Below, piece by piece: positions 5,918 through 11,230 of a DNA stretch of 12,115 bases (positions are counted from its first letter, which is position 1; each line of letters starts with the position of its first letter). The stretch comes from Comamonadaceae bacterium (GTDB taxonomy: Bacteria > Pseudomonadota > Gammaproteobacteria > Burkholderiales > Burkholderiaceae_C). The DNA is taken from positions 1 through 12,115 of the forward strand of contig CANGYC010000046.1 in the NCBI GenBank assembly GCA_947457975.1, given 5' to 3'. Below the pieces are notes generated by a model. The model saw only the letters and a list, made by a program, of their open reading frames with translations. It had not been told where the DNA came from and made no database searches. A program made the translations under genes and the position numbers.

Positions 5918-6795
5918 GCTCCAGCGCCCTCCTGCGGAGCGGGCGCCGCACCGCCCTCGCGGCGCGGCTGCTTGTAGCGGGCGTAGGCCCAGAGGTACTG
6001 CCCAGGCAGGCTGAGGATCAGTGCCTCATTGGCGCGGTTGACCAAGGTCACAGCCGTCAGCAGGTCGGGGGGCGGAGCGGTATCGAAATCGGCGACCGGC
6101 GGCAGGAAGTCAAGCTGGTAGCCCTGGCCACTTGGCAGGCGGCTGGTGCGCACCGGAATCAAAGCGGCGCCGCTTTGCAGCACGAGGCGCGCCGCCAAGG
6201 TCATGCTGTAGGCCGGCCGGCCGAAAAAGGGCGCCCACACGCCCAGACCCTCGGGTGGTACCTGGTCGGTGAGCAGGGCCACCGCACCTCGGGAGCGCAG
6301 CGCCTTGAGCATCTGACGGATGCCGGCCAAGCTGGCTGGGGCCATCACCAGGCCCGGGCGCTCGCGGCTGGCCGCCATCAGCCGGGCCAGCCAGGGCTGG
6401 CGCGCCGGCCGGTACAGCGCGGTGACAGGTCCATAGAGTTCGGCCAGGGCCTGCGGTGCGAGCTCGAAGCTGCCGCAGTGGGCCGAGAAGAAAACCACGC
6501 CACGACCCTTGGCGAGAGCCGCATCCACATGCTCGCGGCCGGACACGCTCACCTGGGTGAGGCAAGACTGCTGGTGCGGCCGCATCCAGAGCCGGGGCAG
6601 CTCCGCCACAAAGCGGCCGGCGTCAGCGATGGCGGGGCGGGCCTGCTCGAAGGACAGCCCCGCCTGGGCCACGTTGGCCCGGAAGCTGCGGCGGTAGCCA
6701 GGGCTCAGCACCCACACCAGCCAACCAAGCAGTCCCCCCAGGGCATGCAACAGGGGCAGGGGCCAGCGTGACAGGAATCGAAAGAAAAGGAACAT
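5914..6795 (-). CDS. Lysophospholipid acyltransferase family protein (LpxL/HtrB type), upstream copy
   Basis: A 293-residue paralogue of the neighbouring acyltransferase and a probable lipid A lauroyl/myristoyl transferase at the inner membrane. The catalytic HX4E motif (AHCGSFE) is at His106-Glu111. YRPARQP lies around 131-137, and the TDQVPPEG then WAPFFGRP block is near 192-207, all in family order. The N-terminus is hydrophobic (FLFFRFL, then GGLLGWLVWVL) and ends in a basic anchor (YRRSFR). I chose the ATG at 6795. The frame extends to a TTG at 6813, but family members usually start just before the SRWPLPLLHA block, which favours the ATG. No good ribosome site is visible for either start. 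It is the first gene of a two-gene operon and divergent from metK. Its Ala/Pro-rich C-terminus carries the four-base overlap with the next gene. Confidence 0.92.
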   Translation of the reverse strand: MFLFFRFLSRWPLPLLHALGGLLGWLVWVLSPGYRRSFRANVAQAGLSFEQARPAIADAGRFVAELPRLWMRPHQQSCLTQVSVSGREHVDAALAKGRGVVFFSAHCGSFELAPQALAELYGPVTALYRPARQPWLARLMAASRERPGLVMAPASLAGIRQMLKALRSRGAVALLTDQVPPEGLGVWAPFFGRPAYSMTLAARLVLQSGAALIPVRTSRLPSGQGYQLDFLPPVADFDTAPPPDLLTAVTLVNRANEALILSLPGQYLWAYARYKQPRREGGAAPAPQEGAGA

Positions 6796-6849
6796 CAAAC
6801 CATGGGGCCGCAAAGGGTCAGAGGTGATCGGCCGGGGGCGAGAGCTGCC

Positions 6850-6855
6850 TATAAT
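6850..6855 (+). promoter_or_regulatory. Promoter -10 box for metK
   Basis: A perfect TATAAT. The expected transcription start about seven bases downstream (6861-6863) coincides with the first bases of the P1 stem of the proposed riboswitch, which supports both calls. No good -35 box is visible; TGATCG around 6825-6830 is a poor match. The box sits in the divergent region shared with the acyltransferase operon. Confidence 0.6.
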
Positions 6856-6860
6856 GGCCG

Positions 6861-6920
6861 AGGTCGCCGAGTTACAGAACTACTTGCAGGGCGACCTTAA
6901 ACAATTCTGCTAAAGCGTTC
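6861..6920 (+). promoter_or_regulatory. SAM-II (SAM_alpha) riboswitch aptamer upstream of metK
   Basis: By hand the leader folds into an H-type pseudoknot. P1 is AGGTCGCC (6861-6868) with GGCGACCT (6890-6897). P2a is GAAC (6877-6880) with GTTC (6917-6920), and P2b is GCAG (6886-6889) with CTGC (6907-6910). Signature sequence is present: TTGCAG just before the P1 3' strand, TTAAACAA after it, then GCTAAAG. Aligned to the published metX SAM-II aptamer as I recall it, U21/G22 map to 6885/6886 and U44-A47 to 6911-6914, the SAM-contacting bases. The spacing between P2a, P2b and the CUAAA element then matches base for base. The element binds S-adenosylmethionine and lowers expression, here of the enzyme that makes SAM. 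The first loop is two or three bases longer than in metX. No covariance search could be run. Confidence 0.82.
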
Positions 6921-6944
6921 GCCGCGACTCCCCGCCGGCAACGC
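6915..6944 (+). promoter_or_regulatory. Candidate expression-platform hairpin of the metK leader
   Basis: GCGTT plus GCCG (6915-6919, 6921-6924) pairs with CGGC plus AACGC (6936-6939, 6940-6944), giving nine pairs with one bulged C at 6920. It reuses 6917-6920, the 3' strand of aptamer stem P2a, so it and the ligand-bound pseudoknot exclude each other. Its loop contains ACTCC (6927-6931), complementary to GGAGT (6961-6965) in the metK ribosome site. No T tract follows, so control of translation is more likely than intrinsic termination. This is inference from pairing only. Confidence 0.4.
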
Positions 6945-6959
6945 GCCGAGCAACTTCAC

Positions 6960-6964
6960 AGGAG
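6960..6964 (+). promoter_or_regulatory. metK ribosome binding site
   Basis: AGGAG lies nine bases before the metK ATG, a good Shine-Dalgarno match that fixes this start. It overlaps GGAGT (6961-6965), which is complementary to ACTCC at 6927-6931 in the leader, so access to it could be switched. Confidence 0.75.
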
Positions 6965-6973
6965 TGTACGTAA

Positions 6974-8152
6974 ATGGCGAACGACTATCTCTTCACGTCC
7001 GAATCGGTTTCCGAAGGTCACCCCGACAAGGTGGCCGACCAGATTTCGGACGCCATCCTCGATGCGATCTTCGCGCAGGACCCGAGGTCCCGCGTGGCCG
7101 CCGAAACCCTGACCAACACCGGTCTGGTGGTGCTGGCCGGCGAGATCACGACCAACGCGCATGTGGACTACATCCAGGTCGCGCGCGACACCATCAAGCG
7201 CATCGGCTACGACAACACCGACTACGGCATCGACTACAAGGGCTGCGCGGTCATGGTCTGCTACGACAAGCAGTCCAACGACATCGCCCAGGGTGTCAAC
7301 CATGCGTCCGACGACCACCTGAACATCGGCGCTGGCGACCAAGGCCTGATGTTCGGCTATGCCTGCGACGAGACGCCCGAGCTGATGCCCGCGCCCATTT
7401 ACTACGCGCACCGCCTGGTCGAGCGCCAAGCGCAATTGCGCAAAGACGGCCGCCTGCCCTTCCTGCGTCCCGACGCCAAGAGCCAGGTCACCATGCGCTA
7501 TGTGGACGGCAAGCCGCACAGCATCGACACCGTGGTGCTGTCCAGCCAGCACGCCCCCGAGATGAGCCTGGGCGACAAGATGAAGCCGGCCTTCGTCGCG
7601 GCGGTGAGCGAGGAAATCATCAAGCCTGTACTGCCCAGGGAGTGGCTCAAGGACACGAACTACCTGATCAACCCGACCGGCCGCTTCGTCATCGGCGGCC
7701 CGCAGGGCGATTGCGGTCTGACCGGCCGCAAGATCATCGTCGACACCTACGGCGGCGCCTGCCCGCACGGCGGTGGCGCCTTCTCGGGCAAGGACCCCTC
7801 CAAGGTCGACCGCAGCGCTGCCTACGCAGCCCGCTACGTGGCCAAGAACGTGGTGGCCGCAGGCCTGGCCAAGCAGTGCCAGGTGCAGGTGGCCTACGCC
7901 ATCGGCGTGGCGCGTCCGATGAACGTGACGGTGTACACCGAGGGCACCGGCGTCATCTCCGACGACAAGATTGCCGCCCTGGTCAACGAGCACTTCGACC
8001 TGCGCCCCAAGGGCATCATCCAGATGCTGGATCTGCTGCGTCCGATCTACTCGAAGACAGCCGCCTACGGCCACTTCGGGCGCGAAGAGCCAGAGTTCAC
8101 CTGGGAACGCACGGATAAGGCCGCCGCCCTGCGCGCCGCAGCCGGCCTGTGA
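6974..8152 (+). CDS. metK: S-adenosylmethionine synthetase (methionine adenosyltransferase)
   Basis: A cytoplasmic enzyme that makes S-adenosylmethionine from methionine and ATP and releases phosphate and pyrophosphate. The 392-residue length is normal for the family. The N-terminal [13 protein letters not shown] (residues 15-27, with catalytic His16 and metal-binding Asp18) is followed by the ATP-contacting hexapeptide GAGDQG at 119-124. The DTYGG then [16 protein letters not shown] block lies near 257-280, and the C-terminal domain is intact. The ATG at 6974 is set by an AGGAG ribosome site. The leader holds a perfect TATAAT and a SAM-II-type aptamer, implying feedback repression by the product. 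The stop overlaps the GTG of the downstream amidase and no terminator is visible there. Together with ahcY to the right it forms the methyl cycle. Confidence 0.98.
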
Positions 8153-11135: not shown

Positions 11136-11144
11136 GCGGGCACC

Positions 11145-11223
11145 TTCCGAGGAGCGCTGCGAGACGCTCGTGTGTGTCCACACGAAAGTCGTCCCAGGCT
11201 CGGAACCGTGTCCAACCGCGCTC
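11145..11223 (+). promoter_or_regulatory. SAH riboswitch upstream of ahcY
   Basis: An aptamer for S-adenosylhomocysteine that raises expression when SAH accumulates. P1 is TTCCGAG (11145-11151) with CTCGGAA (11199-11205), seven perfect pairs. The pseudoknot is GAGCGC (11152-11157) with GCGCTC (11218-11223), six perfect pairs. The internal arm has GACG (11163-11166) with CGTC (11190-11193) and CGTGTG (11169-11174) with CACACG (11179-11184), capped by TGTC. The conserved strings GAGGAGCGCTGCGA, CCCAGGCTCGG and GCGCTCACC match the known SAH element as I recall it, and the next gene removes SAH, as expected. The arm capped by TGTC is the variable region of the motif. Confidence 0.93.
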
Positions 11224-11230
11224 ACCCTGC

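Follow-up and report, generated by a model that had tools for sequence, protein, structure and literature searches.

The metK gene in the stretch of DNA analysed here (the window; 12,115 nucleotides) is preceded by what is likely a diverged, SAM-sensing riboswitch of the SAM-II kind, which would lie at the start of the metK transcript and turn the gene off through an anti-Shine-Dalgarno (anti-SD) sequence. SAM, the product of MetK, is the cell's main donor of methyl groups. Comparison of leader sequences demonstrates the structure of the element, its covariation, its homology to SAM-II, its metK context and the covariation of the anti-SD with the Shine-Dalgarno (SD) sequence. On this comparative evidence, the element is a widespread, unannotated SAM-II variant, new here as a covarying branch.

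The preliminary description of this DNA had proposed a pseudoknot of three stems (8, 4 and 4 pairs), with the strings UUGCAG, UUAAACAA and GCUAAAG at the ligand-contacting places of SAM-II, upstream of metK in a member of the Burkholderiales. Direct reading of 6861-6920 confirms the pseudoknot base for base (P1 of 8 bp, P2a of 4 bp, P2b of 4 bp) and finds all three strings where they had been placed. The ORF from 6974 is borne out as metK by a TIGR01034 match of 582.5 bits (cut-off 309.4), and the assignment of the host to the Burkholderiales also holds. The window contains a single instance of the 5' core pattern GAGTTA-N1-9-CWACTTGCRGG, which is absent from all 200 dinucleotide shuffles. The fold of 6861-6985 has an energy of -43.2 kcal/mol (z -2.31; 5 of 200 shuffles are equally stable), and P1 is part of this predicted structure, which comes from a folding tool that predicts no pseudoknots. 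The features of the leader are as follows.

6850..6855, + strand: -10-like box TATAAT, read directly; the transcript would start at about 6861-6862, with the aptamer as the mRNA 5' end
6861..6868, + strand: P1 5' strand AGGUCGCC, from direct reading and the 41-leader alignment
6869..6874, + strand: L1 GAGUUA, third strand of the SAM-II ligand site; 6871 is the U10-to-G position (numbering after the pocket positions given in PMC3764141)
6877..6880, + strand: P2b 5' strand GAAC, from leader comparison
6884..6889, + strand: UUGCAG, comprising U20, U21 and then the P2a 5' strand GCAG (6886-6889), from leader comparison
6890..6897, + strand: P1 3' strand GGCGACCU, from direct reading and the 41-leader alignment
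6897..6904, + strand: L3 UUAAACAA, the site of hairpin inserts in other leaders
6907..6915, + strand: CUGCUAAAG, comprising the P2a 3' strand (CUGC, 6907-6910) and pocket bases U44, A45, A46 and A47, from leader comparison
6917..6920, + strand: P2b 3' strand GUUC, which has three competing partners
6927..6931, + strand: anti-SD ACUCC, from comparison of pairing energies with the SD
6937..6944, + strand: GGCAACGC, partner of GCGUUCGCC (6915-6923) in H1, which encloses the anti-SD, from pairing and folding
6961..6966, + strand: SD GGAGUG, from direct reading and the anti-SD pairing comparison
6976..6983, + strand: GGCGAACG within codons 1-4 of metK; its complement is CGUUCGCC at 6916-6923 (hairpin H2), from folding and codon counts
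6974..8152, + strand: metK, methionine adenosyltransferase, 392 aa, from the ORF and TIGR01034

The helices were evaluated in a set of 101 metK leaders, 63 from the window's family and 38 from other families of the order, the latter picked to spread across families. Eighty of these were parsed, leaving out L078 and 20 of the 38 other-family leaders. The alignment A1 comprises the 41 leaders that have no long inserts; the other 39 have such inserts or a long L1 linker and do not enter it. At the 15 pairs of the three stems, 98.2% of the cells in A1 are standard pairs, compared with 36-45% when the partners are slid by 1-3 columns as a control, and seven pairs, spread over P1, P2a and P2b, show two-sided change. 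The covariation score is reached by 0 of 500 shuffles, in permutations that ignore kinship. The count of pair types is unexceptional (135 of 500 shuffles are as high), and the other four measures are reached by 0 to 5 of 500.

The changes can be followed through all 80 leaders. P2a occurs as GCAG/CUGC (35 leaders), GCGG/CCGC (28), GCGG/CUGC (7), GCGA/UCGC (2) and GCAA/UUGC (1), and is one base shorter in the remaining seven. P2b is formed by GAAC, GAGC or GGAC with GUUC in 59 leaders, and among the other 21 its two strands change length in concert, with GAC opposite GUC in 18 and GGC opposite GUC in one. The misfits are the two leaders of family f18, where UCAC faces GUCU and CGAC faces GCGU.

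The Rfam SAM-II model RF00521 (SAM_alpha) aligns over 6853-6934 with 18.6 bits (E 0.13), below its cut-off of 36, and the element is therefore missed by standard annotation. None of 16 metK loci from the window's family reaches the RF00521 gathering score, and a search of 20 further metK leaders gave four matches at E <= 1, the best at 26.8 bits. Covariance models built from the leaders themselves behave differently. R2, made from eight sequences that all come from other families and none from the window's own, matches 6862-6927 of the window with 45.6 bits (E 5e-13; the next best match has E 0.36). R1, a covariance model of the metK-leader core, recognises all 31 of the RF00521 loci supplied to it (E <= 7.4e-5). 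Because compensatory changes occur in all three stems and R1 finds every one of these RF00521 loci, the homology of the metK-leader element to SAM-II is regarded as secure at the level of sequence comparison. The preliminary description had tied its refutation to two findings together, no RF00521 match above threshold and no compensatory changes in other metK leaders; the RF00521 match does lie at the site but below threshold, and compensatory changes are abundant in P1, P2a and P2b, so its reading is supported. What stands of it is the SAM-II class, by covariation and homology; what falls is membership in the standard family, from which the element has diverged by the change of U10 to G, a short P2b and inserts in L3. 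A large covarying branch escapes the SAM_alpha threshold of Rfam.

A scan of the whole window at Rfam gathering scores lists only an SAH riboswitch at 11143-11230 on the + strand (RF01057, 55.6 bits, cut-off 37), about 3 kb downstream of metK. RF01057 is a known riboswitch class, often found before ahcY. With the metK leader, this places two SAM-cycle RNA sensors within one 12 kb stretch.

The binding pocket is largely retained. In the part of the structural survey PMC3764141 that treats the pocket, 13 SAM-II bases, U10 among them, are described as completely conserved. Twelve of them are kept in the window (U11, U12, U20, U21, G22, C23, G42, C43, U44, A45, A46 and A47), and these twelve are invariant in the 41 leaders of A1, as placed by our own alignment to the positions given in that part of the survey. 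The thirteenth, U10, is replaced by G, both in the window and among the leaders (76 of 80), giving an L1 of GAGUUA. The remaining L1 sequences are GAUUUA and GGUUUA (two leaders each), and it is family f18, with two leaders, that retains GAUUUA in the same metK context. Among canonical SAM-II copies in the order, L1 is GAUUUG in 31 of the 32 matches counted. The metK leaders thus supply a natural example of change at a place in the pocket for which full conservation has been described. In SAM-II an A-rich L3 lies in the minor groove of P1; the corresponding loop reads UUAAACAA in the window, and long inserts interrupt it in 32 of the 80 leaders. These inserts tend to fold, with a mean z of -1.9 against mononucleotide shuffles and 21 of the 32 below -1.5.

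The SAM-V riboswitch gives some indication of what a change at U10 might mean. As described in sections of PMC6061858, its pocket superposes on that of SAM-II, it uses translational control, and its U8, taken here as the equivalent of SAM-II U10, hydrogen-bonds the uridine that pairs with the adenine of SAM. GAGUUA is also found at six Pelagibacteraceae loci, where a hairpin and a T run follow. In the two of these that were scanned (L135 and L246), SAM-V follows the GAGUUA element, and the associated genes encode an O-acetylhomoserine sulfhydrylase and a homocysteine S-methyltransferase. These loci fit the tandem SAM-II/SAM-V arrangement that is known from a passage of PMC9481103, and the presence of GAGUUA in them argues, without proving it, that a G in place of U10 still permits SAM sensing.

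Several lines of evidence bear on how the leader might control expression. A TAnnnT box with at least four matches to TATAAT stands 5-10 nt before P1 in 77 of the 80 leaders (5-6 nt in 69), compared with 3 of 557 background windows. With this -10-like box just in front of P1, the metK mRNA therefore probably begins with the aptamer. A two-box sigma-70 scan of 6700-7050 returned no promoter, and a terminator scan of the same region returned no terminator, with a scanner that also missed a hairpin and T run visible in another locus of the same genome (L061). The anti-SD lies directly after the P2b strand. Over the 80 leaders, its pairing with the leader's own SD averages -10.31 kcal/mol against -8.93 for swapped partners, and 0 of 10,000 permutations, which ignore kinship, are as good. 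In the 18 other-family leaders alone the values are -12.08 and -9.33 kcal/mol (0 of 10,000), and in the window's family alone 4 of 10,000 permutations do as well; with one leader for each of 12 families, the median fraction is 0.0 and the worst 0.044. The pairing extends to 15 contiguous pairs in L112. An anti-SD that adjoins P2b and covaries with the SD points to translational control, which is quite likely here in preference to transcriptional control.

The P2b strand has a second potential partner downstream, in that GCGUUCGCC can pair with GGCAACGC to form H1. H1 crosses the anti-SD:SD helix, and the two should therefore exclude each other. Its pairing energy is -13.3 kcal/mol against -9.1 for shuffled downstream stretches (0 of 200 as good), but for covariation the 18 other-family leaders do not pair clearly better with their own partners than with swapped ones (866 of 10,000). 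In folding of the leader before the SD emerges, H1 prevails (P > 0.5) in 54 of 62 leaders of the family and 10 of 18 others; at full length it exceeds 0.5 in 0 of 62 and 1 of 18.

Equilibrium folding was rejected as proof of switching, since it does not reproduce switching over the 80 leaders. When the sequence after GCUAAAG is folded, the SD stays closed whether P2b forms or not (its unpaired probability averages 0.097 with the P2b strand free, 0.099 with it blocked); blocking lowers SD exposure in only 26 of 80 leaders, never by more than 0.2, and the Wilcoxon test (p 0.008) points in the wrong direction. As the SD is closed at equilibrium either way, an OFF switch needs co-transcriptional timing.

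A mechanism of this kind can be proposed. SAM would stabilise the P1/P2 pseudoknot and a major-groove triplex, and the formation of P2b would remove GUUC (6917-6920) from H1. The adjoining anti-SD, once freed, would base-pair with the emerging SD and so lower metK translation, giving negative feedback on SAM synthesis. Without SAM, H1 would form first during transcription and keep the anti-SD in its loop while ribosomes load. In the window's family, pairing of the P2b strand with metK codons 1-4, its third partner, could shut mRNA that missed early loading. SAM is very likely the ligand. An OFF switch in which the choice of H1 is kinetic is somewhat favoured, the OFF sign because, to our knowledge, SAM generally exerts negative feedback on its synthase where such control is known. 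The riboswitches that precede metK in other bacteria are SAM-responsive according to sections of PMC4239095 and PMC2864571.

It may be, though this is doubtful, that the leader is a three-way switch, with the strand GUUCGCC common to the ligand pseudoknot, the anti-sequestering hairpin and the first metK codons; together with the change of U10 to G, such a switch may be kinetically timed and differ in the ligands it favours, for instance by a shifted balance between SAM and SAH. As GUUCGCC also pairs with the first metK codons, the coding sequence itself would then be part of the expression platform.

The same aptamer and ligand could also act with the opposite sign: in the absence of SAM, the P2b strand and the anti-SD would lock the SD and start codon in a single long hairpin, H2, and SAM, by taking GUUC into the pseudoknot, would raise metK translation. 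H2 is the minimum-energy fold of the leader in the window, where blocking the P2b strand lifts the unpaired probability of the SD from 0.04 to 0.34, and at full-length equilibrium the P2b strand is predicted to pair with the start codons in 58 of the 62 leaders of the family. The second metK codon is GCG in 47 of the 56 cases in the family where it encodes Ala, compared with 26% in 30 metK bodies; in a set of 206 other genes from mixed hosts, the figure for second codons is 10 of 27. Some of this bias may stem from the history of the clade. However, the start-codon pairing is predicted in only 6 of 18 other-family leaders, and was rejected as a general mechanism outside the family, whereas the anti-SD pairing is general. 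Mean SD exposure over the 80 leaders is hardly altered, and activation of the SAM synthase by SAM would be unusual against general background knowledge. An ON switch is thus considered unlikely.

Other alternatives leave the aptamer in place and change what follows from it, or what it binds. Rho-dependent termination or mRNA decay, with anti-SD pairing as a secondary matter, has a parallel in Sinorhizobium meliloti, where a passage of PMC9373788 links SAM-II pseudoknot formation to mRNA stabilisation, and canonical copies in the order are followed, by eye, by hairpins and T runs at many of the loci inspected; with no intrinsic terminator found in 6700-7050 and an anti-SD that covaries with the SD, it is an improbable account of the metK leader. 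Slightly less probable again is an aptamer descended from SAM-II whose preference has moved to a different ligand. The G beside the adenine-binding uridine in 76 of 80 leaders suggests it, given the contact made by SAM-V U8 in the cited section of PMC6061858, but GAGUUA recurs in the six Pelagibacteraceae loci, two of which continue with SAM-V and the genes named above, f18 keeps GAUUUA before the same gene, and that gene is the SAM synthase. A leader conserved for protein binding or for its structure, and without a small-molecule ligand, is very hard to reconcile with the retention of 12 of 13 pocket bases and of the pseudoknot, or with the homologous RF00521 loci, of which 17 of 30 have a metX match and one a metK match. 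The reading preferred here remains a SAM-sensing OFF switch at the level of translation.

The element is near-universal in the window's family. All 60 sampled genomes have metK and all 60 have the element in a metK leader; 62 of 63 family leaders carry it, the exception (L078) being a second metK copy in one genome. R1 at E <= 0.001 finds it in 195 of 200 family genomes and in 177 of the 178 good ones, a few of which may reflect metX or other copies. Elsewhere in the order, 18 of 38 leaders and 11 of 27 families carry the element according to a motif reader that covers about 330 bases and is insensitive to absence, and across the phylum R1 matches 35 of 299 genomes, canonical SAM-II loci included. 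A pattern scan of named genomes gave at least 120 places, at least 112 of them with the full motif and at least 99 before metK; among the matches listed, those before metK include Burkholderia, Paraburkholderia, Ralstonia, Cupriavidus, Bordetella and Achromobacter, as well as Polaromonas, Rhodoferax, Polynucleobacter, Dechloromonas and Accumulibacter. Of the two possibilities raised in the preliminary description, clade spread or transfer, this distribution does not look like local transfer. Simple transfer is disfavoured, as judged by this distribution, since almost every genome of the family has the element and its presence, through gain or loss, varies mostly by family. Plasmid carriage was also discarded as an explanation: among 72,556 plasmid records there was a single partial match, which covers 45% of the query at 79.4% identity.

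Related elements occur in other contexts. In f55, another family of the same class, seven loci (L266, L273, L275, L276, L279, L281 and L282) have an element resembling SAM-II, in which GAUUUA and a long L3 are joined by what looks by eye like an anti-SD of the GCCUC/GAGGC type. It precedes ORFs of about 100-120 aa, of which one was tested (letters of L279, its end from L281 and L282) and has a sub-threshold methyltransferase match only. At L187, L222, L231 and L050, in hosts that include Pseudogulbenkiania, Aquitalea and Silvimonas, the element precedes small ORFs of about 105 aa that start with MYDC or MFDC, and the three of these tested have no NCBIfam match. In L050 the element is a second copy behind a canonical SAM-II, and in L231 a MATE transporter ORF follows, with a similar-looking ORF by eye in L187. 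In Dechloromonas (L236) the ORF that it precedes has a sub-threshold match to an HD domain, and in Accumulibacter (L167) it precedes another ORF; neither of the two is metK. Some genomes of the window's family have extra copies before other ORFs (L283, L286, L284 and L287), two of which have CUUGCC in place of CUUGC and are further SAM-II-like variants.

SAM-II in betaproteobacteria as such was already mentioned in 2009. The relevant section of Leyn et al. 2014 (PMC4239095) places SAM_alpha only in Rhizobiales and Rhodobacterales, describes a new 'metXZ' RNA element in betaproteobacteria, and calls attempts to find the regulation of betaproteobacterial metK unsuccessful. A passage of PMC3521395 that lists Rfam-type RNAs for one Burkholderia names SAH, and no SAM class appears in that passage. 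Among the papers listed by a search of the open-licence literature, which is not proof of absence, none deals with a SAM-II element before betaproteobacterial metK. The metK leader element is thus a concrete candidate answer to the missing metK regulation noted in that section of PMC4239095.

The 'metXZ' element itself is probably SAM-II, a match based on its genes, the arrangement of its parts and its terminator. The genome from which the window derives has a canonical-looking SAM-II (L061, contig C1, 1664-1725) before a metX identified by NCBIfam, with 25.4 bits for RF00521 and 24.9 for R1. Its parts run GCGCC-GAUUUG...CUUGCGG-GCGC...GCUAAAG, and the G+C-rich hairpin and T run that follow were seen by eye and not called by the scanner. 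RF00521 exceeds its cut-off in 26 of 150 genomes of the order, with a metX match at 17 of the 30 loci fetched. The assignment of 'metXZ' follows from these matches, the metX genes and the anatomy of L061, and if it is correct the element is no longer an orphan. A metK leader from another family (L038) has a canonical SAM-II of 41.7 bits.

Among known systems, the metK element most resembles SAM-II (RF00521), with which it shares the H-type P1/P2a/P2b pseudoknot, the UUGC and GCUAAA pocket strands, an association with methionine and SAM genes and, possibly, the A-rich L3. It differs in scoring only 18.6 bits, in having GAGUUA in place of GAUUU in L1 and a P2b of 3-4 bp, in the hairpin inserts in L3 (32 of 80 leaders), in its metK target, and in an anti-SD platform with no terminator found. 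The 'metXZ' element of PMC4239095 is a sister element in the same genomes, but stands before metX/metZ with a terminator and has GAUUUG in L1. SAM-V (RF01826) shares the superposable pocket and translational control in the cited sections of PMC6061858, but the metK leader has no RF01826 match at E <= 10 in 6500-7300, with a tool that detects SAM-V in L135 and L246. RF01726, the SAM-II form with long loops in the relevant passage of PMC2864571, is at home in Bacteroidetes and marine sequences, and no match to it is listed at E <= 10 for the metK leader. RF01727 (SAM/SAH) has no match at E <= 10 in 6500-7300 of the window; it too is found before metK, and its home, in the same passage of PMC2864571, is the Rhodobacterales.
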